Assembly: GCF_030691135.1 (NCBI RefSeq)
Contig: NZ_JAUYFA010000024.1
Span: forward strand, 1-58,174
Source of the DNA: Phreatobacter sp.
GTDB lineage: Bacteria > Pseudomonadota > Alphaproteobacteria > Rhizobiales > Phreatobacteraceae
Direction of reading: 5' to 3'
DNA length: 58,174 bases
Under the pieces are notes generated by a model, which was given only the letters and a program-made list of their open reading frames with translations, was not told where the DNA came from and did no database searches. The translations under genes and the position numbers were made by a program. Position 1 is the first letter of the stretch; each line of letters begins with the position of its first letter. Of the stretch, positions 13,959 to 58,174 are shown one piece after another.

Positions 13959-14986
13959 TATGGCTCCCGGAAACGGAGGGACGCGCGGCGGCGTCCATCG
14001 AAGGTGACGACCAGAAAATTTGCCGGCGATCCACCATGGGCTGCGCAGTCCGTCGATCCGCTGATCTCGAACTCAGTCGTACGGATGCAGGCCGGAACCG
14101 CACCGCCGAAGACCAGCGGCCGCCCGTCCCGCGCCACTGGGCGGCCTTCGGCATCGACCGCCTCGGCAAAGGACAGTACCCGAGCCGGAGTGCCCTCCAG
14201 CGGCGGCTTCAGGCAGGCGCCCGGTTCGATGCGGAACCAGCCACGCGTGACGATGCGCCCGGCATCATCGGTGCCGAGCGCCGCCATGATGCGATGGCCG
14301 GTATCGTTGCACCAGGCGAAGCCGGGACCCTCGCCGGCCCTGAGAGCCGCCAGCAGCCGGTCGAAAATGTCCGGCAGCACGGCTGCATCGGCAGGCAGGT
14401 TGAGGTCGGTGACAAAGGCGCGCAGCGACGCGTCGGTCTTCGGGCCTTCCAGCCCGTCGATCGGCCCGGGGTCATAGCCCATGCGTGTCAGCAGGCGCTG
14501 GATGCCCGCCTTGCGCGCCTGCGGCAGGTCGTAATCCGCCTCTTCCGACAGGAACAGCACGCCGATGCCCTCGACGACCGTCGGCTTGACCTCGACGAAG
14601 GGGGCGAGACGGTTGGTCGGCTGGCGGCAGGTTTGCGCGCCGGCCACCAGGAAATCACCGTCGCCGATGCACAGGCTGAGATGCTCGGGCTGGCCGAGGC
14701 TGGCGCCCGGCGGCTCACCGAACGGGCGCGCATGTAGGAACAGGCGCCCGGGCACTTCCGCCGATTGCAGGATGGCGCGGCACTGACCCGGATCGAGCCT
14801 GAACCAGCCGCGGGTCGCGGCGGTGTCGCCGACGACCACGCCAATGGCCGCTTCGGTCATCACGCTCGTGCGGTTGCACAGGCGCGTTTCCGCCGCGGCG
14901 GGATATGCGAGGGTCGCGGCGGCCATGAAAGCCGCTGCGACCGCGCAGATCCGCTCACGCGTGAATGAGCGTGCCGGCGCCACCAT
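13958..14986 (-). CDS. Exported DUF1036 protein with central peptidoglycan-binding-like domain
   Basis: A 342-residue exported protein. The signal peptide ends near residue 33 (AYPAAAE). Two DUF1036-like domains (about 34-130 and 225-340) each contain the CN(R/D)T start and GWFR(L/I)(D/E)PG core. Between them (about 160-210) is a helical segment reading [17 protein letters not shown], which matches the PG_binding_1 fold that attaches proteins to cell wall. The gene starts 32 bases inside the end of argB, with GGAG upstream of the ATG, and overlaps the nucleotidase start. The function of DUF1036 is unknown; periplasmic or envelope location is likely. Confidence 0.8.
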
Positions 14987-44372: not shown

Positions 44373-44815
44373 GGCGGACCTCCGACGGCTAACGAGCCCG
44401 ACGAGTGCCACGGCGATGTGAAGGTGTGGTCGCCGTGCGATGACGGTTCAAAGACGGCTGTGGAGTAAAGCGCGCAGGTCTCCAGCAGGCACCGATGTCG
44501 AGGGGAAAAGTTACGAGCCGACGCGCGCCGGACAGCCCCGGGAACCACTTCGTCAGCGAGCTGCGCCGAGCCCCCGGGCCGTCACAAACAAGTTCCCGCT
44601 GGCATGTTGAAAGACATATGCACGGCTGACGGGGATCGTCCCGACGGGGCGCCGAGGCGAAAAGCCGCCGGCCACACGCGTCGATCCGACGGCTTCAAGA
44701 AGCGTCGTCGGAGAACAACCGTCCCGGAGCATGCCTGTTCCGCAAGGAACTGGCAGCACTCCATGCTACCATCATGATTCATGCAGTCGCGAACCCATGA
44801 GCCGAGGCAATTCCG
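44373..44815. promoter_or_regulatory. 443-base divergent intergenic region
   Basis: No credible gene is seen here; the short antisense frame at 44582-44782 lacks a ribosome-binding site and family features. The region must hold the divergent promoters of the importer operon and the FecR gene. It contains the palindrome at 44735-44752. Confidence 0.7.
44735..44752 (+). promoter_or_regulatory. 18-bp palindrome (site A) upstream of the FecR gene
   Basis: CTGTTCC-GCAA-GGAACTG: one arm base pair departs from the consensus CTGTTCC-N4-GGAACAG shared with three other sites near 53.8, 56.4 and 58.1 kb. It ends 63 bases before the FecR-domain gene start. Confidence 0.65.
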
Positions 44816-45421
44816 ATGTCGACGAGGCGTTTGCTGGGTTTTATCGGAGTTGGGATTTTAGCCGTCGGCAGCTTCGGCTCCCCGTCCGCCATGGCAGCGC
44901 AGGTCGGCCGCGTCACCGAGGGTCAGGGCCCGGCTTTTGCAGAGAATGCCGGCACGACCCGCTCGCTGGTCCGCGAAACCGGCGTGATGCTCAACGATCT
45001 GGTCCGAACCGAGCGTGAGGGCCGCGTTGCCATGACCCTTGGTGAGCGCACCACACTCCGCATGGGTGGCCAGGCGCGCGTCCGCATCGACCGCTTCATC
45101 GCCAGCCAGGGCGGCACCATCACGATCGGCTCCGGGGCGGTCGGCGTGGATACGCAGGGCCGCCTGCCGCGGGGCCTGACCGTGCGCAGCCCCTATGCAC
45201 TTGTCGCGGTCAGAGGAACCCGTTTCGTCGTCGGGGCTGAGCCGACCCGCGGTTTTTCTGTTCTCGTCGATGAGGGGCGGGTCGATGTGCGGGCGGGGGG
45301 TGTGACGGTCAAGCTCGGACCCGGCGAAGGAACGACGGTGGCGCGGCGCGGCGAGAGGCCCTCGCCACCGGCACCCTGGTCGCGCGAGCGCGCCGCAAGT
45401 TTCCGGGCGTTGCTGCGCTGA
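44816..45421 (+). CDS. Exported FecR-domain protein
   Basis: A 201-residue protein with a signal peptide (about 1-27) and a FecR-like domain: TEREGRVAMTLGERTTLRMGG, then RSPYALVAVRGTRFVV, and VLVDEGRVDVRAGG. In other bacteria such domains occur in periplasmic proteins that bind peptidoglycan or surface polymers, or sense transported compounds, and they often accompany CHASE2 cyclases. Here the cyclase is the convergent next gene. A GAGG site lies before the ATG, and the conserved palindrome is 63 bases upstream. No FecI sigma factor or TonB receptor is near, so a classical Fec system is excluded. Confidence 0.87.
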   Translation: MSTRRLLGFIGVGILAVGSFGSPSAMAAQVGRVTEGQGPAFAENAGTTRSLVRETGVMLNDLVRTEREGRVAMTLGERTTLRMGGQARVRIDRFIASQGGTITIGSGAVGVDTQGRLPRGLTVRSPYALVAVRGTRFVVGAEPTRGFSVLVDEGRVDVRAGGVTVKLGPGEGTTVARRGERPSPPAPWSRERAASFRALLR

Positions 45422-45504
45422 CGTCTCGACTGGCACCTCTGCCTGCATTCTGCCGGGCCTTCGCAGAACAAGAGCGGCGGCGGGGGCTGCCCGGTTAGAG
45501 TTCT

Positions 45505-47382
45505 TCAAACTGTGAAGACGGTTCTCGGCTCCGAGGCAGGGCTCGCCTGCCAGGCGCCCACCGGCCGCAGATCCTCCGCCTGGAGCCGGGCGGCGGCACC
45601 CGGCCCGATCAGGATCGACGTTCCGAAGGTCTTGTTCGCCGCCTCCAGCTTGGCGGCCGCATTGATGGCGGGGCCGTGGGCTGTGTAATCGAGCTTTCGG
45701 CCACCTCCGATATCGCCGAGGATCGCGGGGCCTGTCTCGATGCCGATGCGCGTGCGCCCGAGTTTGAGCTTTGCGCCCAGCGGTGAGGTCCTGAGCTGTT
45801 CGGTAGCGGCCAGCATCTGCCGCGCGCAATCGAGCGCCTTCTTCGGGTGGTCGTCGCAATCCATCGGCGCGTTGAAGAAGGCGTGGAGGGCGTCGCCGAC
45901 GACCTTGTCGACCATCCCGCCATGGGCGATGACGATCCCGGCCGTCATTTCCACATAGGCGTCGAGGAGCGCGATGAGGTCCTTCGGCGATGCGCGCTCG
46001 GTCATCGCGGTGAAGCCCTCGATATCGGTGAAGAGCGCGGTGATCTCACGCTCTTCACCGTCGATCTTGATCCGCGAGGGATCGTCCGCGATTCTGGCCA
46101 CAACCTCGGCGGGCAGGTGCTGGGCAAAGCGCCGCTCGATCGCCCGGCGCTCGCGAAGGGTTGCCGAGAACAGGATGAGGGCCGTCACCTGGACCGGGAT
46201 GAGGCCGATGAGGGGCGGGCCGAGGGGATCGATCAGGAACCCGGCAAAAGCAAAGAGAGCCAGACAGAGACCGATCCAGCCTGCCGCGAGCACCAGCGAG
46301 ATTGCGGTGGCGATGAAGGGGGAAGTGACGAGGACAGCAATCATCCCGCCGAGGGCGATGATGAATGTCATGGCGATCTCGGCTGACCGGCCATGGGGCG
46401 GCGTGACCGGAGCCTGCCCGCCGAGAATCTGTTCCACCGTTTCGGCGATGATCTGAACCGATGGCATGAAGGGGTCGGTATGGGTGGCGCGCAGGCCCCC
46501 GATCTCCGGGGCGCTGGCGCCGAGGAGCACGATGCGTCCTTTCAGGGCCGAGGAGTCGTCTCCTCGCAGGAGACGCGTTGCGGAGATGGTGCGGGCAACG
46601 CGGTCATCGGCTCGGCCGTGATGAAGGCGAAGCGAGAGGTCGCTCGTCAGCGGTACGGAGGCCTCACCCACCCTGAGGCGCCCGCCGGGAACGTCGATGA
46701 TCACGCTCGACGCATCGAACCGGGCCTGGACGAGCGCCAGTCCTAAGCCGGCGAGGGGCTGACCCTGGGCGCTGACCACGAGCGGGCTCGCGGTGATCAC
46801 CTGCCCGGACACCTCGTCTCCGGCAAGGAACGAGACGATGCCGATGCCCCGGGCGGCCAAGAAGAAGGGCTCGGGAGCAACGATCACTCCAGGTGCTTCC
46901 GGCACCTGAACGTCACGTCCATCGCCGACGACGACGATGGAGAGCGGCTGCACCACCGCCGCCGTGACCTGCTCGGGATCGAGCACCGCGCCGAGGATGG
47001 TGGGCACCTTGCCGATGGCCGCGGCGAGGAGGGGCGTGCCCTCATCATCCCGTCTGTCGGAGAGGACAATGTCGACGCCGAGTACCTGCGGCTCTGCGGC
47101 AGCGATCCTGTCGATCAGAGTTGCGAGCTTTTCGCGCGACCAGGGCCATGGCCCCATCAGGCTGAGGGACGCCCTGTCGATGTCGACGACCATGACGGGC
47201 GTGCCTGGCGGCGCGGTGCGCGGGAAGAACCGCCCGATGAGCGCATAGCCGTTCTCGCGAAGACGGCTCGCAGGCCCCGCCTCGACAAAAAAATAGATCG
47301 CCACGCCCATGATCGCAGCCAGCGCGCCGGCTGCGAGAGCCATCAGCCGCCTGCGGCGGGCTCCAGACAGGAACCCCTTCAA
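45505..47382 (-). CDS. CHASE2-domain adenylate/guanylate cyclase
   Basis: A 625-residue membrane cyclase. It has an N-terminal helix (about 14-34), an extracytoplasmic CHASE2 sensor (about 40-325, e.g. VLGVDIVLSDRR, LKGRIVLLGASA), three membrane helices (about 335-405), and a class III cyclase domain (about 440-600). Metal Asp453 (FTDIEGFT) and Asp497 (VVGDA), adenine-contact Lys493 and Asp565 (KLDYT), and Asn574 are present. The transition-state arginine position is Lys578 (NAAAKLE), an unusual substitution that may lower or alter activity. It starts with TTG overlapping the TGA of the Crp-family gene, so both are co-translated. Lys/Asp specificity residues favour ATP. Confidence 0.9.
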   Translation of the reverse strand: MKGFLSGARRRRLMALAAGALAAIMGVAIYFFVEAGPASRLRENGYALIGRFFPRTAPPGTPVMVVDIDRASLSLMGPWPWSREKLATLIDRIAAAEPQVLGVDIVLSDRRDDEGTPLLAAAIGKVPTILGAVLDPEQVTAAVVQPLSIVVVGDGRDVQVPEAPGVIVAPEPFFLAARGIGIVSFLAGDEVSGQVITASPLVVSAQGQPLAGLGLALVQARFDASSVIIDVPGGRLRVGEASVPLTSDLSLRLHHGRADDRVARTISATRLLRGDDSSALKGRIVLLGASAPEIGGLRATHTDPFMPSVQIIAETVEQILGGQAPVTPPHGRSAEIAMTFIIALGGMIAVLVTSPFIATAISLVLAAGWIGLCLALFAFAGFLIDPLGPPLIGLIPVQVTALILFSATLRERRAIERRFAQHLPAEVVARIADDPSRIKIDGEEREITALFTDIEGFTAMTERASPKDLIALLDAYVEMTAGIVIAHGGMVDKVVGDALHAFFNAPMDCDDHPKKALDCARQMLAATEQLRTSPLGAKLKLGRTRIGIETGPAILGDIGGGRKLDYTAHGPAINAAAKLEAANKTFGTSILIGPGAAARLQAEDLRPVGAWQASPASEPRTVFTV

Positions 47383-48077
47383 ATCTCGTCCAACTGCGCA
47401 AGTTCCGCGAGCTTTTCGAGGTGGCAGGAATAGCCGGCCTTGGTGCGCACGAGGGCCCCCCGGTCAAGCAGTTGAGAAATGGCCTGGTTGACCTTGGGCC
47501 GCGTCGCGCCGACGAGGGACGCCAGTTCGCCCTGGGAATAGGGGAGGCTCACCTCGACCCTGCCACGCTCCTTGCGGCGATCGACGGCGAGGTGATGGAA
47601 GAGCCGGGCCACCCGCGTCTCGATGCTCATCAGGGCGATCGATTCGAGCTGGGCTGTCGTCTCTCGGAGTCGCGAGCAGAGCCCGCCGATGACGGCCTTC
47701 CGGAACGGGCTGGATGCCTCGATCAGGCCCCAGACATCCTCGCGCGCCAGCGTGAAGCCGGCCACCTTGGTGAGCGCGGTGGCATCGGTCGAGCGGGGCT
47801 CACCGTCGAGGATTCCGAGCTCGCCGAAGACCTCGCCAGCCGCCGCCATGCGGACGGTGACCTCGCGTCCTTCCTCGGTGATGAGCGACAGGCGGACGAG
47901 ACCGGAGACGAGGATGACCAGCGTGTCCGCGTTCTCCCGCCGCTGGAAAATGGTCTGGCCGCCCGTCCAGGCCTTTGCCCGGGCCCGTCCGGCGAGCGAC
48001 GCGAGCTGATCGCCTGCTTTTCCAAACCAGGGATGGCGCGACAGGATCTCAAGAGCTGGATTGTTTTCGCTCATCAT
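47379..48077 (-). CDS. Crp/Fnr family regulator with altered recognition helix
   Basis: A 232-residue regulator with a cyclic nucleotide-binding domain (about 12-120) and winged helix (about 150-225). The phosphate-binding cassette FGELGILDGEPRST retains the Glu86, Arg95 and Ser96 that contact cAMP in E. coli CRP. The recognition helix reads TRPKVNQAI: Arg193 matches CRP Arg180, but CRP Glu181 and Arg185 become Pro194 and Gln198. A non-standard binding site is therefore expected, unlike TGTGA. No Fnr-type cysteine cluster is at the N-terminus. It overlaps the CHASE2 cyclase gene. The start is the first of two adjacent ATGs; an upstream frame to 48185 lacks support. Confidence 0.9.
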   Translation of the reverse strand: MMSENNPALEILSRHPWFGKAGDQLASLAGRARAKAWTGGQTIFQRRENADTLVILVSGLVRLSLITEEGREVTVRMAAAGEVFGELGILDGEPRSTDATALTKVAGFTLAREDVWGLIEASSPFRKAVIGGLCSRLRETTAQLESIALMSIETRVARLFHHLAVDRRKERGRVEVSLPYSQGELASLVGATRPKVNQAISQLLDRGALVRTKAGYSCHLEKLAELAQLDEI

Positions 48078-48292
48078 CGATCCCGTTGGACGCCCGTCAA
48101 TGCGCCGCCGGACCTTGCTCGCACTCTCACGCCACCTGCACCACCGGGCATCTGATTCTTCCGCTTCGACGATGGCTCCACGCATGAGCGACGTTGGCTG
48201 CCACCCTCGATCCCGGCATGATCAGCATGACGGTCTCAGCTTCAAGCAAATTCTTCCTGCCGACCAGGCCGCAGATCGTGCGGGCCGGAGAA

Positions 48293-50716
48293 TCAGTCGA
48301 TCTCCCGGATCAGCCGGAAGCCCGCCACCTGATCGCGAATGGCGGGCGCGCTGATGATGCGCGCATCGAGCATGCGCAGGCTCGGCGGGTCGGCCCAAGA
48401 CCCGCCTCGCAGCAGGCGCGGGGCCTGAGGTTCACAATCGCGCGGCGGAAATTCCGCATCGGCCCGCGGCTGCGGGGCGCAGGTCGCGACCCATTCCCAG
48501 ACATTGCCGTTGAGGTCGTGGAGACCCCAGAGCCCCGCGGCAAACCGGCCGACGGGCGCGGTATAGATGGCGCCGTCGGTGCAGCCCGTCGCCTCCCAAT
48601 CGGGGAACACGGCGCGGGCAGACTGGTCCGCCCCGTTGCCGATCATGCACATCTGCGGACTGTCGCGCCTCAGCCACCGCTCGGCGGCGGCAAGGTAGTG
48701 CCACTCGGGATCGGTCGGCAGCCGATAGCGCTGCCCCGTCTTCTGCGACAGCCATGCGGCATAGGCCTTCGCATCCTCGTAGCTGACGCAGACCACCGGG
48801 TGATCGTCCCCCTGATCGAAGCCGGGCGATTGCCAGGATAGGACGGGATCGAGCCGCCAGGAAGGGGATCGCGCATGGCATCCCGGTGCGATCACCCTGC
48901 CGCTCTCCCTGACAAAGGTGGCGAAATCGCCGCGGGTCGTCTCATGGCGAGCGACCGCAAAGGGGCGCGGCAGATCGATGCCGATCTCGCGGCTCGCATT
49001 GGCGATCGAGATCTGCATGGTGACCCGGCCAGCCGGAACCACAACCAGGTCCAAGCAGGTGTCGCAGTCCCGGAAGCCCTCACCGTCTCCGGGCTTGCGG
49101 AATATCCGGGTTGCGCCGGCCTGGATCGGCACATAGCCGAGGGCCGCGATCCGGGTTTCGGCCGCGTTGCGATCGGCGCCACGGCCCATGAGGTCGACAA
49201 GCGCCTGAGCGCTCGTCGCGGTCTCGACCTCACGGCTCAGGATCTCGGCGGGGGTCGGTAGGGCCGAACTCGTCACCGGCGGCGCGAAGGCGATCGCCGG
49301 GGCGCGATCTTCCACCCCGGACGGCGGCGGCGGCGCGCCAGCCTGACCCAGAGCCGGCGTCGGGACGGGGGGCACGGCGAGGCCCGGCGCTCTCGGTGAT
49401 GCCGCCGGCTCCCGCGTCTCGCGGGGCGGCTCGGGGCGCGGTGCGGGCGCAATCGCCGGGGATGCGGGCGTCTCGGCCACCGGCGGTGCGGCCGGCACGG
49501 CCGCAGGTTGAGGCTGCGCCTCATCCCGAGGCGGCGAAACAGGCGCCGGGCGCTCGGCGGGCGTGGCAGGAACCTGACCGGCGGCGCGGGGGGCGGCAGC
49601 GCTCGCGACGGGAGATGGCGCCGACGGGGGCTGGCGGAGGAGCTGGAGGGAGAGCCAGCCGGCAAGGCCGGCCAGCACCAGTCCGGTCAGGACGACCACG
49701 GGCATGACGGCGCGTCTCGGCCGATCGCCGGCGGGCACGGCCTTCGGCGGGTCCGACCGGGGCGTGCCGACGGCCGACACGGCAGGTTCAGACGGCCGCC
49801 GCTCACCCGATGGAAGCGGGGCGGCCGGCGCAGCTTTGGCCGCAGCCGCCGTCTCGCGCGGCGGCGGAACGAGGGCAACGCCCGCAAGTCCCGCCGTCAG
49901 CGCCAGAAAGTCCCGCGTCCAGAGGTCGGGATCGACAGGAATGGCCCCGGTTCCGATTTCCAGCACGGCATCCAGGGCTTCGAGGAGCGCGTCCGGATAG
50001 TCGCCCGCGGCAACGGAGACCGCGGCGAAGCGGGCATCGAGCTGACGGTCCCGCTCCGGCGGCGGCACGGCAAGCCCCGTCACCAGACGGTAGAGGACAC
50101 CCGCCGCCGCGGCGAGATCGCCCGCCCGCGCCTCCGGGCCCGCAGCCTGGAGCAGCGCCCCCGCAAGCACGACGTCGGAGGGTTCGCTCAGTTGAACCTC
50201 GCGCGCCGACACGGCGCCATGGGCGAGCCCGAGGCGATGCAGCCCGGCGAGGCCATGCACGAGACGGTGGCCGATCATGGCGAGGTCGGCGGCGCTCGGC
50301 CGCCTCAGGAGGTCGTTGGCCCAGACATCCAGGGCCGGACGCGACGTGCCGGACGAGGCGAGATAAACCGTCCCGAAGGCCCGCAGCTCCTGTCGCGGCG
50401 CATCGATGGCAGGATCGGCGAGGGCCTGCAGGCCTGCGGCCCGTTCCAGGAAGGCCTGAAGCCTGGCATCGACATCCCCCTCCCAGCCCCGGATCGGCTG
50501 AACCGAGCCGTCGTCGAGCCTCGCCGCAAGACCGGCGGGGAAGAACTCGGTCAAGGTCACGCTCGCCTGGTCGGCGAGCCGCAATCCCTCGTAGCTCAGC
50601 GCCGCTGATCCGGAGGCGCGGTGTTTGAGGACGAGAAAATCGTCACCGACCCGGGTTCCCGGCGGCAAGGGACGGCGATCGTCTGCCGCCGGGGTGGGAG
50701 GGTTGACTGAACTCAT
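48293..50716 (-). CDS. Pseudokinase fused to a formylglycine-enzyme-like (FGE/SUMF1) domain, membrane-anchored
   Basis: An 807-residue protein. Residues about 20-285 have a protein-kinase fold without catalytic groups: the HRD-type segment is HGAVSAREVQL (no Asp), the DFG position reads AGALL, and the Gly-loop is absent. A transmembrane helix (about 333-356) and a long Pro/Ala/Arg linker (about 365-485) follow. The C-terminal FGE-sulfatase domain (about 540-806) has CDTCLDLVVVPAGRVTM, FAVARHETTRGDF, HPVVCVSYEDAKAYAAWL, YRLPTDPEWHY, NGNVWEW, LLRGGSW and GFRLIRE. The layout resembles T6SS PpkA-like kinase/FGE proteins, but here the kinase is inactive and the context is type I secretion. It overlaps the OmpA gene by 4 bases. 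Confidence 0.87.
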   Translation of the reverse strand: MSSVNPPTPAADDRRPLPPGTRVGDDFLVLKHRASGSAALSYEGLRLADQASVTLTEFFPAGLAARLDDGSVQPIRGWEGDVDARLQAFLERAAGLQALADPAIDAPRQELRAFGTVYLASSGTSRPALDVWANDLLRRPSAADLAMIGHRLVHGLAGLHRLGLAHGAVSAREVQLSEPSDVVLAGALLQAAGPEARAGDLAAAAGVLYRLVTGLAVPPPERDRQLDARFAAVSVAAGDYPDALLEALDAVLEIGTGAIPVDPDLWTRDFLALTAGLAGVALVPPPRETAAAAKAAPAAPLPSGERRPSEPAVSAVGTPRSDPPKAVPAGDRPRRAVMPVVVLTGLVLAGLAGWLSLQLLRQPPSAPSPVASAAAPRAAGQVPATPAERPAPVSPPRDEAQPQPAAVPAAPPVAETPASPAIAPAPRPEPPRETREPAASPRAPGLAVPPVPTPALGQAGAPPPPSGVEDRAPAIAFAPPVTSSALPTPAEILSREVETATSAQALVDLMGRGADRNAAETRIAALGYVPIQAGATRIFRKPGDGEGFRDCDTCLDLVVVPAGRVTMQISIANASREIGIDLPRPFAVARHETTRGDFATFVRESGRVIAPGCHARSPSWRLDPVLSWQSPGFDQGDDHPVVCVSYEDAKAYAAWLSQKTGQRYRLPTDPEWHYLAAAERWLRRDSPQMCMIGNGADQSARAVFPDWEATGCTDGAIYTAPVGRFAAGLWGLHDLNGNVWEWVATCAPQPRADAEFPPRDCEPQAPRLLRGGSWADPPSLRMLDARIISAPAIRDQVAGFRLIREID

Positions 50717-51975
50717 GCGCAGCTGGCGGTCCTGAACTCGACACGGCGATCGATATCCGTGCTGCTATCATCCCGCGGCAGCCCGACCAAGACCTCGCGT
50801 GAGCCGACCCCCGCCGGTCTGAGGCGGGCGGCAAGACCGGGAGCACGCTCCGACAGCAGGGCGATGATCCTTTCCGCGCGCTCGCGCGACAGACGCTCGT
50901 TGAACGCCTCGAGGCCCGTCCGGCTGGCATGGCCGACGACCTCGAGACAGCCTTCCGCACTGCCCGCGCGGGTCGCGATCTCGTTGAGCCAGTTGGCATA
51001 ATGCGCGGCGGCCGCCGTCTGCGAATTGAAGTTCGTCGTCCCCACCTCGAAAAGAAACAGAACCCCCAGCCGGCCAAGGTTGAGCCCGTTGCTGACGAGT
51101 TGCGAGAAGGCCTTTGCCGCCTCGTCCCTCTCACCGATGGCCATCAGCGCCAGGTAGAGACCGTTGAGGGCACGCAGCTGATCGCCTTCCGGCATGGCCC
51201 TCGCCTCACGGTAGAGATCGAGCGCGCGACGCGCATCGCCCGCCTCATAGGCGACGGTGGCCTCGCGGATTCGCGCCGCTGCGGGAAGCTGAGCCATATA
51301 GGCCGGGCTGACGGGATCGCCGGGCCGGGAGCGCTGGCAGGTCTCGATATAGGCGGTGGTTGCCGCGTCGAGCCCCCAGACGGGGGTATCGGCATAGAAG
51401 CGAGCCGGCGCAATATCGACGTCGGAGATGGTGGCTCTGGCGACCGATCGGGCGGCGACGGTTTTCGACGCCTGATCGATGAGGGCGAAGCAGATCCAGA
51501 ACGCATCCCGCGGTCCGGCCGGCTGTCCCGCATTGTTGATGGTGTTGAACGTGCCGATGAAGATGAACTTGGCCTTGGCCAGGTTCTCGACCGTGAACGG
51601 CAGCACCTCGATGTGCTGGTAGCGTTCGGCGACCAGCGTCGCGATCCGACGGTCGAAGCCGCGCGTCGCCGCCGACTGGATCCCCGTGACCCCGTCGACC
51701 AGGGGATCGATGACGATAATCGTCTTCTCGGCGGTAACCGGGACGGTGTTGAAGAGGGCTGTCGCCGCATTCAGGAAGGCCCGCTCCAGGGGAACGAGCT
51801 GCGGCGGGCGTGGCATGGCCGGTGGCTGTCCGAGCCCCTGGGCGAAGCCTCCTGCGCTGAACCCGACGAGGCTTGCGCACACGAGAGCAGCAAGGATGGC
51901 GGGCCGGACCAAGGCCGAAGTGCCCTGCTGGCACCTGCGCCAGATCGCAGGGAAGGAGATGATGTCGTTCAACAT
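50713..51975 (-). CDS. Exported OmpA-family protein with TPR-like region
   Basis: A 420-residue protein with a signal peptide (about 1-46, ending GGFAQ). The N-terminal half contains a beta/alpha domain resembling outer membrane assembly or FlgO-type lipoprotein domains (TIIVIDPLVDGVTGIQS, FIFIGTFNTI). TPR-like helices follow (ARRALDLYREARAMPEGDQ, ALMAIGERDEAAKAFSQL), and an OmpA-like domain ends the protein (LEVVGHASRTG, SRERAERIIALL, STDIDRRVEFRT). It probably anchors an envelope complex to peptidoglycan. ATG at 51975 has GAGGA upstream; 51990 is weaker. It precedes and overlaps the pseudokinase gene. Confidence 0.85.
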   Translation of the reverse strand: MLNDIISFPAIWRRCQQGTSALVRPAILAALVCASLVGFSAGGFAQGLGQPPAMPRPPQLVPLERAFLNAATALFNTVPVTAEKTIIVIDPLVDGVTGIQSAATRGFDRRIATLVAERYQHIEVLPFTVENLAKAKFIFIGTFNTINNAGQPAGPRDAFWICFALIDQASKTVAARSVARATISDVDIAPARFYADTPVWGLDAATTAYIETCQRSRPGDPVSPAYMAQLPAAARIREATVAYEAGDARRALDLYREARAMPEGDQLRALNGLYLALMAIGERDEAAKAFSQLVSNGLNLGRLGVLFLFEVGTTNFNSQTAAAAHYANWLNEIATRAGSAEGCLEVVGHASRTGLEAFNERLSRERAERIIALLSERAPGLAARLRPAGVGSREVLVGLPRDDSSTDIDRRVEFRTASCA

Positions 51976-52013
51976 GGCGGATCCTCGCATGAGAATTTTC
52001 GGAACATAAGCTC

Positions 52014-53756
52014 TCAGGCCGCAGAGCTCGTACGTGGGGACTGGACAGCTGCAACCTTGTTGCCGCGCATGCGGGCGATGACGTCGTCCCGGTCACCGAA
52101 GGCGAGTGCGGTGCCGAAGGACATCACCAGCACCTTGTCGACATAGGCGAGCAGCTGCGGGCGGTGGGTGACGACGACCACCGTGCGGCCCGCCTCCTTC
52201 ATCGCGGCGATGGCCTGGCCGAGGGCGCGCTCGCCCTCCTCGTCGAGATTGGAATTGGGCTCGTCGAGGACGATGAGGCGCGGATCCCCGTAGAGGGCGC
52301 GGGCGAGGCCGACACGCTGGCGCATGCCGCCGGACAGCGCGAGGCCGCCCTCCCCGATCGGCGTGTCATAGCCCTGCGGCAGCCGCAGGATGACGTCATG
52401 GGCGCCGGCGGCCTTGGCGGCGGCGACGACTGCACGGCTGTCGACATCGGCAAGACGGGCGATGTTGTCGGCCACCGTCCCGGCGAAGAGCTCCACATCC
52501 TGCGGCAGATAGCCGACGCTCTTGCCGAGCTTGTTGCGGTCCCACTGGTTCAAGGCAGCGCCATCGATGCGGATTTCGCCGGCGCGCAGTTCCCAGACAC
52601 CGGCCAGGGCCCGCGCCAGGCTCGACTTGCCGCTGCCCGACGAGCCGACGATCGCCACGCTCTCGCCGGGCTGAACGCTGAAGGAGACCCCGCGCACGGA
52701 AGGCTTGGCGGCAGCGGGAGGAACGATGGCGACATTCTCGACCTCGATCTGGCCCTGCGGCACGGGAAGGCTGACCGGCGCCGCCTTCTGCGGAAACTCG
52801 TTCATCAGGTGGCGAAGCCGGCGATAGGCGCTGCGGCACCCGACGATCCGCTTCCACTGGCCGACGATCTGCTCGACGGGAGCCAGCGCGCGGCCGATGA
52901 TGATGGAAGCTGCCATCATCGCCCCGGGAGAAATCTGTTTCTCGATGGCGAGCCAGGCCCCGGCTGCGAGAACGCCGGTCTGCACCGCGATGCGGGCGAA
53001 CTTCGACATGGCGACGAGGGCGGCGGTCAGCTCGGCCGAGGCGACATTGGCGGCAACCGCCGCGCTTTGCTGTCCGCTCCAGCGCTCGAGCACGGTATCG
53101 CCCATGCCGAGGCCGCGGACGACCTCGCCGTTGCGGAGCGCCGACGCCGCGAAGGTCGAGGCATCGTTCGACAGACGCGAGGACTGGTCGACGCCGCGCT
53201 TCGTCAGGATCTCGGTGAGGACCGCCAGCGCGAAGAGAACCACGGCACCGGCCAGAGCGATCATGCCGAGCACCGGATGCATGAAATAGCAGAGCAGCAC
53301 GAAAAGCGGCGTCCACGGCAGATCGCAGATGATCGCCACCGTGCCGCTGGCCAGCGAGTCGCGGATGGCCTCGGCATCGCGAATGAGCTGCTGCCCCTGG
53401 CGCCGCTCGGGATCGAGCTCGGCCCGCATCATGGCATCGAAGAGAGGCCGGCGGAGGACGCGTTCGAAGGCGACGGACGAGCGCACCAGCACGCCCGAGC
53501 GGGCATACTCCAGGATGCCGTAGAGCACGAGGAAGATGAGAACGATGAGGGTCAGGAGGAGGAGCGTGGTCTCGTTGCGGCTGGCAAGGACGCGGTCATA
53601 GATCTGCATCGAGTAGATCGGCATCGCGAGCATGGTCGCATTGATGAACATGCTGATGATGACCGCGGCGAACGTCCCCGGCAGACAGGCGCGAATGGCG
53701 ACCTTGAGGGGATCGATCGGTTTCTGGCTCCGAGCCTCGTCCATCGCCTGTGCCAT
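52014..53756 (-). CDS. Type I secretion ABC permease/ATPase (PrtD/HlyB family)
   Basis: A 580-residue exporter half-transporter. Six membrane helices occupy about 20-300. The ATPase domain (about 330-560) has Walker A GSSGSGKSS, YLPQDVELF, signature LSGGMRQRVGLARAL, Walker B LIVLDEP, and H-loop VTHRPQL. No N-terminal C39 peptidase-like domain is present, as in the PrtD class that exports unprocessed C-terminal-signal substrates. ATG at 53756 is preceded by AGGGAC, preferred over 53786. It is divergent from the repeat-protein gene; the 227-base gap holds palindrome site B. The HlyD partner is 2.7 kb away. Confidence 0.93.
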   Translation of the reverse strand: MAQAMDEARSQKPIDPLKVAIRACLPGTFAAVIISMFINATMLAMPIYSMQIYDRVLASRNETTLLLLTLIVLIFLVLYGILEYARSGVLVRSSVAFERVLRRPLFDAMMRAELDPERRQGQQLIRDAEAIRDSLASGTVAIICDLPWTPLFVLLCYFMHPVLGMIALAGAVVLFALAVLTEILTKRGVDQSSRLSNDASTFAASALRNGEVVRGLGMGDTVLERWSGQQSAAVAANVASAELTAALVAMSKFARIAVQTGVLAAGAWLAIEKQISPGAMMAASIIIGRALAPVEQIVGQWKRIVGCRSAYRRLRHLMNEFPQKAAPVSLPVPQGQIEVENVAIVPPAAAKPSVRGVSFSVQPGESVAIVGSSGSGKSSLARALAGVWELRAGEIRIDGAALNQWDRNKLGKSVGYLPQDVELFAGTVADNIARLADVDSRAVVAAAKAAGAHDVILRLPQGYDTPIGEGGLALSGGMRQRVGLARALYGDPRLIVLDEPNSNLDEEGERALGQAIAAMKEAGRTVVVVTHRPQLLAYVDKVLVMSFGTALAFGDRDDVIARMRGNKVAAVQSPRTSSAA

Positions 53757-53847
53757 CGGTCTCAAGTCCCTTTCTAGCGGAGCCAATCTGCTCGTCGCAA
53801 CCGCACCTGTCGCGCGCCATCAATCTGTCCTGCCGAAAAATTTGAGG

Positions 53848-53865
53848 CTGTTCCGCGGGGAACAG
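53848..53865 (+). promoter_or_regulatory. 18-bp palindrome (site B) between T1SS ABC gene and repeat-protein gene
   Basis: CTGTTCC-GCGG-GGAACAG. It ends 118 bases before the repeat-protein start and begins 91 bases before the divergent ABC transporter start. ACATC occurs 31 bases downstream of its end, as at site D. With a start point there the palindrome centre would be at about -40, the position of a class II CRP activator. Confidence 0.75.
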
Positions 53866-53983
53866 CGCCCGCCGGCGCTCGAGGCCAAGGTTGGGACATC
53901 GAGGAGCCGAGACGAACAGCCCCTGCGATGGATCAAAACCTCGAAGGCCCGGAGCGGCCTTCAACACCCAGATGGAGCGGGTC

Positions 53984-56332
53984 ATGAGCAACGGATTTTT
54001 TGGTTTCTTCGAGGACGCAGCCGAGGCTGTCGGCGGGCTCATCGAAGATGGTCAGGAAGCGGTCGAGGATTTCGGCGAGGCTGTCGCCGAAACGGCGGAA
54101 GCCGTGGTCGACGGTGTCACGGGTGCCGCCCAGGATGCGGGCGAAGCCGTCACCAACACCGCCCGTGACGCCTCGCGCGCCGTCGGCGAAGTCGTCGGAA
54201 GCGTTACCTCCGCCGTTCTGCAGGGCGGCCAGGCGGTCACCGAGGGCGTCAACGCCTTCGTCCGGGATCCCGGCGGCACGATCAACCGGACCGCCGAGGG
54301 CGCCGCCCAGGGCTTTGAGACCGCTGGCAAGATCGTGGTTGACGCGATCGGCAACGGCATCGTCGGCACCGGCCAGCTGGTCGGCAAGGCTGCCGATGGC
54401 GTGAAAGAGGGCGCCGAGGCCGTCCAGAATGGCCTGGATGAAGCCGGCAAGGCCGCGGGCAAGGTCGTCGAGACGGTCGGCAAGGCCATCCAGGACGGAG
54501 CCAAGGATGTGGCCAACGAGGCCGGCAAGGTCGTCGACGGCGCCAAGGACGCCGCGGTCGACTTCGGCAAGGGCGCGGGCCAGGTCCTGCGTGATGCCGC
54601 CACCGAGGCCGGCAAGGTCGTCGACGGCGCCAAGGACGCCGCGGCCGACTTCGGCAAGGGCGCGGGCCAGGTCCTGCGCGACGTCGCCGAAGAGACCGGC
54701 AAGGTCGTCGATGGCGCCAAGGACGCCGCGATCGACTTCGGCAAGGGCGCGGGCCAGTTCCTGCGTGACACGGCCGAGGAAGCCGGCAAGGTGGTCGAGG
54801 ATGTTCGCGAGGCGGGCGAGACGGCCCTCTCCGATGCCAGCCGTGTCGCCGGACGGATCGTCGAAGCCGCCAAGGATGGTGCCGAAGCCATCGGTGAGGC
54901 AGCCGGCGAGGTCGCCGACGGCGCCACCAAGGTTGGCGGACGGATCCTCGAAGGGATCGGCGAGGGTGCCAAGAACACCGCGGAAGGCGTGGCCGAGAAC
55001 GTGGTCAATGCCGCCGAGACGGCGGGCAAGGTGGGTGGCGCCTATGTCGAGGGCGTCATCGAGACCGGCCAGAACCTGCTCGACGTGGCTGGCAAGAACT
55101 TCAACGACGTCAAGGACGGCGTCGGGAACGCGGTTGAAAACGCGGCGGAAACCGCGCTCGAGGTCGCGACCAGCGTCATCGATGGCATCGTCACGGCCGG
55201 CAAGAACACGGCCGAAACGGCAGGCGATGTGGCCCGCAATACGCTCGAGGGCATCGGCCGGCAGGCCGCCACCGCCATCGAGACCGGCGCCGAGATCATC
55301 GAGGCCGTCGGAACCGGCATCGGAAATGCCGCCGGAAACGCCGTCGAGGTCGTGGTGGACAATGCCGCCGAGGTCGTCGACACCGCACGCGATGTCGGAG
55401 CCATCATCGGCGACACCCTGCAATCGGCCGGCGACAAGCTCGGCGCGGGTTTTGCCAAGACCGGCGAGCTCGTCACCGAGGCGGCGGAAGCCGCTGAAGC
55501 GACCACGAAGGATGTCGTCGACTTCGTCGCCGACAAGGCGGGCGATGCCGCACGGCTCGGCAAGACGGTCATCGATCAGGTCGTCGAGACCGGCGAGGCT
55601 GCGGTGACGACGGGCAAGGCGGTGCTGGAGAAGACGGGCGAGGCAATCGTCGATGGCGCCCGGAGCGCCGCCAATGGCGCGGCGAAGGTGGTCGACGACG
55701 CCCGGCAGGGCCTCGAAGACGGCGTCGGCATTGCCGCGGATATCGGTGCGGGCCTGGCCGGTGGTCTCGGCAAGGCAGGCGAGACAGCGGTCAAGGCGGG
55801 CGCCGAGATCATCGACGCCTTCCGCGAAGGCTTCGCCGACAACGCCAAGATCGACGACAGCCTGTCGGTCGTCAGCACCGGTCGCTCATCGGGCGAGCAG
55901 GCGCTCGTCGCCGAGAAGGGCGAGAAGGGCAATTCCTTCCTCGGCTCGTTCTTCGACGACGCCAAGGAAGCGGTCGAGGAGGCTACCAAAGCCGCCGGCA
56001 AGGGCTCGCAGGAGAGCAGCGACCCGCGCTTCATCCTGGTCGGCAACGACCAGGCCGGCGGCAAGGTCGCCGACATCGGCAAGGCCAGGGGATCCGAGGT
56101 CGAGAAGCCGCTCTTCGAGCTGAAGGAAGAGCTGCCGAAGGAGATCTTCGACAAGCAGCCGAAGGGCCCCTCCTTCGACGACTTCGACGACTTCGCCGTG
56201 GCCGCGAAGCCGGCCGCCAACTCCTTCGGCAAGGGTGCACCGGTGCAGGACGCTCCCCCGCCGGCCACCTTCGGTGGGTTCGACAAGGACTTCGGTGACG
56301 ATGCCCCGAAGATCTCGTTCAACCTCTTCTGA
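53984..56332 (+). CDS. Large amphipathic helical repeat protein, candidate type I secretion substrate
   Basis: A 782-residue protein with no signal peptide. Almost the whole chain is Ala/Gly/Val/Asp/Glu/Lys-rich amphipathic helix. Three tandem 29-residue repeats start at residue 179 with the core GKVVDGAKDAA-DFGKGAGQ; DNA copies are 87 bases. Less regular copies of GKVV(D/E) and DGAKDAA run through residues 1-640. The last 140 residues are acidic and Pro/Phe-containing and end APKISFNLF, a hydrophobic tail of the kind seen in C-terminal type I secretion signals. No RTX nonapeptides are visible. The helical repeats recall LEA or apolipoprotein-like chains. Location between the ABC and HlyD genes makes it the likely substrate. 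The ATG has GGAGCGG upstream, which decides against longer frames. Confidence 0.8.
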   Translation: MSNGFFGFFEDAAEAVGGLIEDGQEAVEDFGEAVAETAEAVVDGVTGAAQDAGEAVTNTARDASRAVGEVVGSVTSAVLQGGQAVTEGVNAFVRDPGGTINRTAEGAAQGFETAGKIVVDAIGNGIVGTGQLVGKAADGVKEGAEAVQNGLDEAGKAAGKVVETVGKAIQDGAKDVANEAGKVVDGAKDAAVDFGKGAGQVLRDAATEAGKVVDGAKDAAADFGKGAGQVLRDVAEETGKVVDGAKDAAIDFGKGAGQFLRDTAEEAGKVVEDVREAGETALSDASRVAGRIVEAAKDGAEAIGEAAGEVADGATKVGGRILEGIGEGAKNTAEGVAENVVNAAETAGKVGGAYVEGVIETGQNLLDVAGKNFNDVKDGVGNAVENAAETALEVATSVIDGIVTAGKNTAETAGDVARNTLEGIGRQAATAIETGAEIIEAVGTGIGNAAGNAVEVVVDNAAEVVDTARDVGAIIGDTLQSAGDKLGAGFAKTGELVTEAAEAAEATTKDVVDFVADKAGDAARLGKTVIDQVVETGEAAVTTGKAVLEKTGEAIVDGARSAANGAAKVVDDARQGLEDGVGIAADIGAGLAGGLGKAGETAVKAGAEIIDAFREGFADNAKIDDSLSVVSTGRSSGEQALVAEKGEKGNSFLGSFFDDAKEAVEEATKAAGKGSQESSDPRFILVGNDQAGGKVADIGKARGSEVEKPLFELKEELPKEIFDKQPKGPSFDDFDDFAVAAKPAANSFGKGAPVQDAPPPATFGGFDKDFGDDAPKISFNLF
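54518..54778 (+). repeat. Three tandem 87-bp repeats in the repeat-protein gene
   Basis: Units 54518-54604, 54605-54691 and 54692-54778 encode near-identical 29-residue blocks (EAGKVVDGAKDAA and following). A fourth partial copy starts at 54779. Confidence 0.92.
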
Positions 56333-56394
56333 GACGGGCGACGTCTGACGCCCCGCAGGACGGCGCATCGTCCTCCTCGCCTGAACTGGACCGG

Positions 56395-56412
56395 CTGTTC
56401 CCCCTGGAACAG
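56395..56412 (+). promoter_or_regulatory. 18-bp palindrome (site C) upstream of the HlyD-family gene
   Basis: CTGTTCC-CCCT-GGAACAG. Four more bases pair on each side (CCGG and CCGG), giving 11-bp perfect arms (56391-56416). It ends 68 bases before the HlyD start. A TAAACC element at 56434-56439 is placed where a -10 would be expected for class II activation. Confidence 0.75.
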
Positions 56413-56480
56413 CCGGTCTCTCGGCTTCGGCGGTAAACCTTCGGGGCAACATCCGACGAAGCGCCGGGAAGGACCGACCG

Positions 56481-57794
56481 ATGAACGGCAAGACCCTTGA
56501 ATGCGAAGCCTCCTGCGATCACCGCCGCTACTCCAGGCTCGCCTTTGGCGCCATCATCCTGGTGTTCGGAGGCTTTGGAGCCTGGGCCGCGATCGCCCCC
56601 CTCGACAGCGCGGCGGTTGCTCCGGGGCGCATCGCGGTCGAGGGCGACCGCAAGCCCGTCCAGCATCTGGAAGGCGGGATCGTCCGGGAGATTCTCGTCA
56701 AGGCGGCTGATCAGGTCGAGGAAGGCCAGGTCCTGTTCCGGCTCGACACCACCAACGCCAAGGCCAATGTCGACCTCCTCACTCGCCAGCTCGATGCCGT
56801 CTTCGTCCAGGAGGCGCGCATTCTGGCGGAACGCGAAGGCTCGGCCCCCATCGCATTCCCGCCGCAACTCCTCGCCAAGGCCGGCCAGCCCTACCTGGCC
56901 CAGGCCATGTCCGAGCAACAGCGCCTGCTCTCGGAAAGGCGCAACTCGCTGCAGAACCAGATCGGCATCCTGGAGACGCGGATCGAGCAGACCACCCGCG
57001 ACATCGATGGCCGCAAGCGTCGCCTTGAAGCGCTGGCGAGCCAGCGGCAAAGCCTGACGGCCGAGATCGACCGGATTCGTCCCGTCATGGAGCGGGGCTT
57101 CTTTCCCCGCAACCGCTTCAGCGCGCTGGAACGCGATGCCTCCCGTCTCGACGGGGAGGCAGGCGGCCTCGAAGGGGATCTTGCACGGCTCGATCAGGTC
57201 ATTTCGGAGTCGCGTCTGCAGATCCAGCAGATTCGCCAGCGGGCCCAGGAGGAGCAGACACAGGCCCTGACCGACATCCGCGCCAGGATCGCCGACACGC
57301 GCGAAAAGCTCGAGGTCGCCGAAGCGGTCCTGACACGGATCGACGTCCGCGCGCCGCGGGCCGGCATCGTCCTCAACGTCCAGGTGACGACGGCAGGCGC
57401 CGTCATCTCGCCTGGCGCGACGCTCGCCGAGATCATCCCGCCGATGCAGCGCCTGACTCTCACGGCCCGGGTCTCGCCCCTGAACATCCAGAGCGTCGCC
57501 ACCGGTCAACGCGCCGAGATCCGCTTTCCCGCCTTCTCGAGCCGCAAGGCCGACCCGATCTTCGGCAGGGTGGTGACCGTCTCGGCGGACGCCGTCGAGG
57601 ACCCGCGCACCCGGGAGACCTTCTACCAGACGAAGGTGACCATCGAGCGCAGCGACATCCCCGCCGAGCTGGCCGCCAAGATCGTGCCCGGCATGCCGGC
57701 CGATGTGATCATCATCACCGGGGAGCGGACGATGTTGACCTATCTGATCGGCCCCCTGCGCGACACCCTGGCGCGGTCCATGCGGGAGCAGTAA
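56481..57794 (+). CDS. Type I secretion periplasmic adaptor (HlyD/PrtE family)
   Basis: A 437-residue membrane fusion protein. It has a short cytoplasmic N-terminus, one transmembrane helix (about 20-42), the lipoyl-like half (APGRIAVEGDRKPVQHLEGGIVREI), a long coiled-coil hairpin (about 90-290), the second lipoyl half (DVRAPRAGIVLNVQV), and a beta-barrel domain with the conserved C-terminal PGMPADVIIITGERTMLTYLIGPL. It links the ABC exporter to an outer-membrane TolC, which is not in the window. GGAAGGA precedes the ATG. Palindrome site C is 68 bases upstream. Confidence 0.95.
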   Translation: MNGKTLECEASCDHRRYSRLAFGAIILVFGGFGAWAAIAPLDSAAVAPGRIAVEGDRKPVQHLEGGIVREILVKAADQVEEGQVLFRLDTTNAKANVDLLTRQLDAVFVQEARILAEREGSAPIAFPPQLLAKAGQPYLAQAMSEQQRLLSERRNSLQNQIGILETRIEQTTRDIDGRKRRLEALASQRQSLTAEIDRIRPVMERGFFPRNRFSALERDASRLDGEAGGLEGDLARLDQVISESRLQIQQIRQRAQEEQTQALTDIRARIADTREKLEVAEAVLTRIDVRAPRAGIVLNVQVTTAGAVISPGATLAEIIPPMQRLTLTARVSPLNIQSVATGQRAEIRFPAFSSRKADPIFGRVVTVSADAVEDPRTRETFYQTKVTIERSDIPAELAAKIVPGMPADVIIITGERTMLTYLIGPLRDTLARSMREQ

Positions 57795-58151
57795 CCGGTC
57801 ACGGGAACGGCCGCCCACCGTCAGTTCCGCTGGTCCCGCGCCTGAGTTTTCCGGGACGAGGAGTTGGAGACCGGCCCCGGCGAGAGCGGACGAAGGACGC
57901 CAGCAAGAGTTCTACCAGTCGCAGCGGCGGGCAATCTGCACCAACGATGCGGACGGGAAGATGATCCTCGACCGGTCGGCCCGGCCAACGGATCCGGCAC
58001 CAGGAGCGCAACGTCGCAAGGCCATCGGTCCGGAGTTCTTTTGCGGAAAGTTCAGGCCTGTTCCGGCGGGAACAGCCCAGGCTGTGGGGCTGGCCTAGGG
58101 TCTGGACATCGGGGCGGGAGACGCCCCTGCCAAACCTGAGGGACCACCGCC
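57795..58151. promoter_or_regulatory. 357-base intergenic region with site D
   Basis: No credible gene is seen; a frame at 57864-58139 lacks family features. The region carries palindrome site D and the likely promoter of the last partial gene. Confidence 0.7.
58058..58075 (+). promoter_or_regulatory. 18-bp palindrome (site D) upstream of the last gene
   Basis: CTGTTCC-GGCG-GGAACAG. It ends 76 bases before the ATG at 58152. ACATC lies 31 bases downstream, exactly as at site B, and GGACATCG matches there, so the two promoters look related. Confidence 0.75.
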
Positions 58152-58174
58152 ATGACCCGCTTCAAGACCTTCGC
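58152..58174 (+). CDS. Start of a further gene (truncated by window end)
   Basis: An ATG at 58152 is preceded by GAGGGACC, a good ribosome-binding site, and by palindrome site D. Only MTRFKTF is visible, so no function can be given. Its shared control site suggests that it belongs to the secretion module; it could be a second substrate. Confidence 0.6.

Follow-up and report, generated by a model that had tools for sequence, protein, structure and literature searches.

Probable Clr-type operators at class II promoter position in a secretion gene region of Phreatobacter sp.

CRP of Escherichia coli recognises the site TGTGA-N6-TCACA, which in class II promoters is centred at -41.5. The CRP-family regulator Clr of Sinorhizobium meliloti (SMc02175; 7PZA/7PZB) possesses, according to the sections of PMC10127613 drawn upon here, the core site GTNNCNNNNGNNAC (GTNNCN4GNNAC), derived from HGTYHCNNNNGRWACA; strong sites lean to pyrimidines on the left and purines on the right, and most Clr-activated sites are located at -42 to -76. 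Among the 20 confirmed Clr genes, 8 encode proteins shorter than 100 amino acids and 10 a signal peptide (PMC10127613, section 7). The Clr target SMc02177 has a FecR domain, SMc02178 is largely periplasmic, and smc02178 lies close to cyaD1 and clr, according to excerpts of PMC5498481. The present analysis concerns a stretch of 58,174 nucleotides from Phreatobacter sp. (Alphaproteobacteria; contig NZ_JAUYFA010000024.1, positions 1 to 58,174, assembly GCF_030691135.1), hereafter the window, in which the 18-bp palindrome CTGTTCC-N4-GGAACAG precedes several genes of a secretion region. As judged from the sequence, these palindromes are very likely the operator of a Clr-type activator encoded at 47379-48077 and acting in class II position.

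Perfect copies of the palindrome are found at 53848-53865, 56395-56412 and 58058-58075, and a copy with a single mismatch (CTGTTCCGCAAGGAACTG) at 44735-44752; our rescan agrees in all four with the preliminary description of this DNA. The next rightward gene follows after 63 bases (44735), 106 bases, or 118 with a later ATG (53848), 68 bases (56395) and 76 bases (58058), matching the 63-118 bases given there. The arms are constant in sequence, with four variable loop bases. With up to three mismatches the window contains six matches against 1.68 expected, a number reached by 1 of 100 shuffles. The whole genome (G000, 116 contigs, 4,218,227 bases) possesses six perfect copies, namely C12:53848, C12:56395 and C12:58058 (C12 being the window), C16:17960, C48:3622 and C111:81182, and no copy of the reversed-pattern control. 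With up to one mismatch the palindrome is found 10 times and the control six times, so that a one-mismatch copy is by itself no evidence. All four window sites fit the published Clr core GTNNCNNNNGNNAC. Their TGTTC-N6-GAACA has the same spacing as the E. coli CRP site, in line with the earlier view of a CRP-size site with altered arms.

The protein encoded at 47379-48077 (minus strand) is a CRP-family regulator of Clr type, with S. meliloti Clr (7PZA) as closest solved chain (E 2.3e-44; next chain E 2.6e-21); the two are about 39% identical over residues 23-232. The base contacts of Clr, given in section 10 of PMC10127613 as Q184, S194, R195, K197, N199 and L152, correspond to Q, T, R, K, N and I in the window regulator, i.e. 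four of six are identical and both changes (S194->T and L152->I) are conservative. The contacts of Clr to the cyclic nucleoside monophosphate (cNMP), listed in section 9 as G85, E86, R95, S96, T140 and T141, are identical in all six cases. The RPKVN helix is unique to this protein among the 10 PF13545 matches in the genome. E. coli CRP, with which half-site spacing and the class II centre at -41.5 are shared, differs in its half-site and in its recognition helix, RE(T/M)VGR. Regulator family, ligand and recognition-helix residues and operator core are alike in the window and in S. meliloti, and by these sequence features regulator and operator belong to an already described type, that of Clr. 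The proposal that this protein reads the sites is probable, given the Clr match, the contact residues and the co-occurrence with sites across genomes.

This co-occurrence was followed in 347 genomes of the order, with a cut-off of E 1e-30 for a Clr-like protein and at most 8 candidates scored per genome. Among 12 same-genus genomes, the three with the regulator are the same three with perfect sites, which occur in none of the nine others. In the whole sample a perfect site is present in 40 genomes and a Clr-like protein in 38; the two occur together in 19, against 4.4 expected from the product of totals. Where two or more perfect sites are found, a Clr-like protein is present in 12 of 14 genomes. 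The 71 perfect sites were classed by a simple codon-bias gene caller trained on window genes, not by curated annotation, and are intergenic in 45 of 47 cases with the regulator versus 6 of 24 without it (P 6.5e-10). The perfect sites exceed the control and sit between genes in regulator-bearing genomes; a random frequency inside genes was not seen.

Ten of the 71 perfect palindromes encode the peptide FLFxPEQ of one conserved ABC-type protein, presumably an ABC-F protein; nine of them are among the 24 sites of Clr-less genomes. Their share of the coding sites is 9 of 18 in regulator-less and 1 of 2 in regulator-bearing genomes (coding sites L011, L013, L016, L046, L050, L051, L053, L133 and L134). 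These palindromes are a coding coincidence that contaminates motif scans.

For the promoter geometry, 30 sites were oriented to the nearest gene start within 150 bases as given by the same gene caller, the nearer gene being used when two qualified. The set comprises the FecR site, which was added, and excludes the orthologue sites of G002 and G009, the near copies at 58058 and on C16 (that on C111 was kept), sites more than 150 bases away from any gene start, as well as genomes that lack the regulator, G265 excepted. In 16 of the 30 sites the A and T characteristic of a -10 element stand at +20, counted from where the palindrome ends; the other offsets have a mean of 1.15 and a maximum of 5. 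Without the three sites of G265 the pair is present in 13 of 27, and without the window's genome in 12 of 25. On the gene-less side it occurs in 2 of 21, sites with a gene within 350 bases on that side being left out of this control. Since the T of the pair is set at -7, the palindrome centre lies at -41.5, which fits the position of a CRP class II activator as predicted from sequence; the earlier estimate of a centre near -40 holds as to class and is refined as to figure.

Within the window the +20 pair is present at 44735 (CATGAT, 44773-44778), at 53848 in both directions (CAAGGT, 53886-53891, plus strand; CAGATT, 53822-53827, minus strand) and at 58058 (TAGGGT, 58096-58101). At 53848 as well as at 58058 the pentamer ACATC starts exactly 31 bases past the end of the palindrome, which a direct reading of the sequence confirms for the preliminary description. 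A composite pattern of palindrome and -10 pair has seven exact matches in the genome, all at described sites, with 53848 matching in both directions and 56395 in none, and no match of the reversed control. The 38 regulator-bearing genomes contain 107 composite matches versus 16 for the reversed control, the latter total being a hand sum over the per-genome table. At least one match occurs in 32 of these 38 versus 94 of the 309 other genomes, three or more in 18 of 38 versus 7 of 309 (G265 and G240 included in the seven). A sigma-70 scan gave no consensus promoter at any of the four window sites.

Several candidates were rejected. An AT-rich, UP-like patch just 5' of the palindrome, seen by eye at several sites of the window's genome, did not reach significance (0.42 vs 0.37, P 0.37, 29 sites). 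One-mismatch scans were dismissed as evidence, with 10 plain matches against 6 in the control and 27 composite matches against 14. The remainder of the window, in which the full pattern had not been noticed earlier, contains no perfect copy; a one-mismatch copy at 14540 had gone unlisted, which lacks a -10-like pair at the fixed distance, is missing from the composite list and was not accepted as a member. In the same genome a palindrome near C35:47901, immediately 5' of a start codon and in the intergenic gap, differs in its outer arm bases and deviates from the composite at one position; as a merely possible further site it does not enter the counts.

In the proposed mechanism, the CHASE2-domain cyclase encoded at 45505-47343 would make cAMP (or cGMP) in response to an external signal. 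With this ligand, the dimer of the Clr-type protein (presumably CRP cluster G) would bind CTGTTCC-N4-GGAACAG centred at -41.5 and recruit RNA polymerase as a class II activator, presumably switching its targets on rather than repressing them. Such targets would be the genes for the FecR protein (44816), the repeat protein (53972) and the leftward ABC transporter (from 53756), and furthermore those of small exported proteins, i.e. the gene at 58152 and the genes on C16, C48 and C111, with a fifth on C26 behind a weaker site. Since 53848 has promoter geometry both ways, the ABC-transporter gene to its left probably belongs to the set, and the leftward transcript may reach the regulator gene, resulting in autoregulation. 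The small proteins, with signal peptides judged by eye, are presumably exported, and the repeat protein would exit via the neighbouring type I system. The linkage of dispersed genes into one unit, as earlier proposed, stands, extended by this ABC gene and by candidate members elsewhere in the genome, all of them small exported-type proteins, of which three follow perfect sites and one a weaker site.

Of the six intergenic sites in regulator-less genomes, three are in G265 and one each in G105, G181 and G240. The three of G265 (L044, L092, L093) are composite sites, and a Clr-like protein is absent from this genome at E 1e-10, so that a reader of another type is conceivable. The sites of G265 have CATTCT as -10-like element and precede small proteins with signal-like N-termini. 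G105 and G181 contain weak homologues without the RPKVN helix. G240 (L136/L202) is an apparent exception: roughly 0.1 kb from its perfect palindrome lies a CRP-family gene whose product has a TRPKVN helix and is 28-29% identical to the window's. That another regulator of the Phreatobacter genome reads the window sites has a low probability, since the RPKVN helix is confined to the linked Clr-type protein, whose presence within the genus goes along with that of the sites (3 of 3 vs 0 of 9). Members of the CRP family can also act as repressors, and a palindrome centred near -41 reaches the -35 region. Repression of these genes by the linked regulator is nevertheless quite improbable: the -10-like pair keeps the spacing of a class II promoter, which is what an activator would require, and in S. 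meliloti 20 promoters are reported to be confirmed as Clr-activated, whereas the repressed flagellin and chemotaxis genes lack a Clr box.

The arms might instead form an RNA stem-loop or belong to a repeated DNA element, e.g. a terminator, a REP-like sequence or a mobile repeat. With perfect 7-bp arms and a 4-base loop, the RNA fold reaches -30.2 kcal/mol and z -6.6 at 56395 and z -3.2 at 44735; the copies at 53848 (z -1.2) and 58058 (z -0.1) fold no better than shuffles. The arm sequence is fixed while the loop bases vary, and the constant distance to the -10 pair, mainly on the gene side, fits a promoter, so that scarcely any probability is given to this alternative for the set as a whole. 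At 56395 the case is less clear. Its arms are part of a 14-pair RNA hairpin (56388-56419, plus strand) between the repeat-protein gene and hlyD, and the -10-like pair at the fixed distance is absent. An intrinsic terminator was not recognised there, as no T run follows the hairpin and the site is absent from the terminator scan list. The palindrome is kept in G002 and G009. A Clr site at hlyD is not unique to 56395, since G208 has a 13/14 site with GATGAT at the fixed distance, 62 bases 5' of its hlyD. The 56395 element may act as a Clr site, as an mRNA hairpin or in both ways; it may influence the ratio of repeat protein to HlyD, serve the regulator as a binding site, or combine these roles. 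Of the four-member regulon first described, 44735, 53848 and 58058 fit, and 56395 is doubtful.

Besides G265 and the missing pair at 56395, the following observations weigh against the Clr-type operator as a full explanation. The perfect 18-mer is absent from 19 of the 38 regulator-bearing genomes, and a Clr-like protein at E 1e-30 from 21 of the 40 site-bearing ones. The P values are too small, because the genomes are related. About 60 bases following the palindrome are largely common to the copies at 58058, C16 and C111, which therefore look like one gene-plus-promoter duplication and not like independent sites. A 215-bp gap and the region's sole sigma-70-like match (0.7 expected) are found at the regulator gene, which may therefore have its own promoter. 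In other genera, FecR genes adjoining Clr have an upstream 12/14 site in 4 of 10 cases, with the -10 pair in 1 of these 4 (of 359 background windows of 410 bases, taken from 12 such loci, 19 also contain a 12/14 match, real sites among them), and the cyclase-domain match near Clr is short and weak in 9 of 20 neighbourhoods (E 1e-7 to 1e-10).

The gene behind 44735 encodes a FecR-domain protein (44816-45421, plus strand; PF04773, E 3.8e-10) with an N-terminus that is signal-like by eye; a site with the same mismatch precedes the FecR orthologue in both same-genus relatives with the locus (G002, G009). It is followed on the minus strand by the CHASE2-domain class III adenylate/guanylate cyclase (45505-47343; PF05226, E 1.9e-33, and PF00211, E 7.5e-15, computed on the longer frame 45505-47382). 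Its cyclase domain matches solved adenylate cyclases, and it is the likely source of the cyclic nucleotide. To the right of the regulator gene the leftward row continues with an FGE/sulfatase-modifying-factor-type protein (48293-50716; PF03781, E 2.6e-40) of 807 amino acids, in which the FGE-type domain is C-terminal and a long N-terminal region lacks a Pfam match, and with a protein without Pfam match (50713-51975) that has orthologues in two same-genus relatives. A type I secretion-type ABC transporter (52014-53756, minus strand; PF00005, E 3.8e-32, and PF00664, E 3.7e-18, computed on a longer frame reaching 53786) is the first gene left of 53848. The 53848 site is kept in G002 and G009, and in G091, of another family, a 13/14 match lies between the corresponding genes.

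Rightward of this site, a 786-aa helical repeat protein (53972-56332, plus strand) is a possible type I secretion substrate; its homologue in G091 adjoins HlyD and ABC genes. The gene contains 87-bp repeats (54512-54798, 3.3 copies, 89% match), and the protein ends in ISFNLF. An HlyD-type membrane-fusion adaptor (56481-57794, plus strand; PF13437, E 2e-14) follows the hairpin. The last gene (58152-58174, plus strand; MTRFKTF...) is cut by the contig end and starts a small protein with an N-terminus that is signal-like by eye. Genes resembling it, as judged by eye, follow perfect sites on C16, C48 and C111, with a gap of 76 bases each, that on C48 being less similar to the others; a weaker site (12/14 positions) precedes a fifth such gene on C26. 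The small proteins (58152; C16, C26, C48 and C111, i.e. L023, L184, L024 and L025) are 84-111 amino acids long where complete. By eye, their N-terminus is signal-like, a hydrophobic stretch is rich in glycine, and a cysteine is present at the C-terminus; the three tested have no Pfam match.

Outside the genus 35 genomes possess the regulator, and 20 Clr neighbourhoods of other genera were examined. A cyclase-domain match is present near Clr in all 20 and FecR in 10; in G012, examined besides these, the cyclase match is weak. The clr-like gene itself is directly preceded by a 13/14 site in G185 and G331. The genes for the repeat protein and the ABC transporter of G091 are divergent around the 13/14 site, and CAAGGT stands at the fixed distance towards the repeat-protein gene. 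Clr-type sites precede an RTX protein, an ABC gene and hlyD in G208, and RTX proteins in G336 and G322 (12 to 14 of 14 positions, G208 and G091 included); in G322 the fixed-distance pair was not found in the direction of the RTX gene.

The window set resembles the S. meliloti regulon in its FecR and small signal-peptide targets and its linked CHASE2 cyclase. It differs in its near-perfect 18-bp operators, its type I secretion genes and its repeat protein, and implies no plant host. Terms for hemolysin, RTX, calcium-binding and type I secretion are all absent from PMC10127613, and Table 1 of PMC5498481 names no type I secretion gene of S. meliloti. In the open-access literature, judged from listings and titles, no link of Clr to type I secretion was found, nor a paper on CHASE2 with FecR and RTX; among the papers listed for Phreatobacter with cAMP, and among those for cAMP, Crp, type I secretion and adhesins in Alphaproteobacteria, none is on topic by title.

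The kind of regulon represented by Clr is known; the genus is new, the promoter model is sharper and the tie to protein export is recurring. The Clr-type sites before RTX, ABC and hlyD genes in G208, G336, G322 and G091 would support a portable export module. Tentatively, and as a nearly even call, FecR, CHASE2 cyclase and Clr may constitute an old, order-wide module that switches on surface-protein export via -41.5 promoters; under its control would be a type I secretion system together with the repeat or RTX substrates of that system, and also the small exported proteins, and the S. meliloti circuit (Clr, CyaD1, SMc02177, SMc02178) would be one specialised descendant. An unexplained repeat becomes a named, proposed regulator-operator pair with a promoter model at base resolution, and with the composite pattern promoters of this type can be located throughout a bacterial order. 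Control by Clr, so far studied in a plant symbiont, would extend to another genus and to type I secretion, and this tie is a clue to what the numerous small exported proteins among the Clr targets do.

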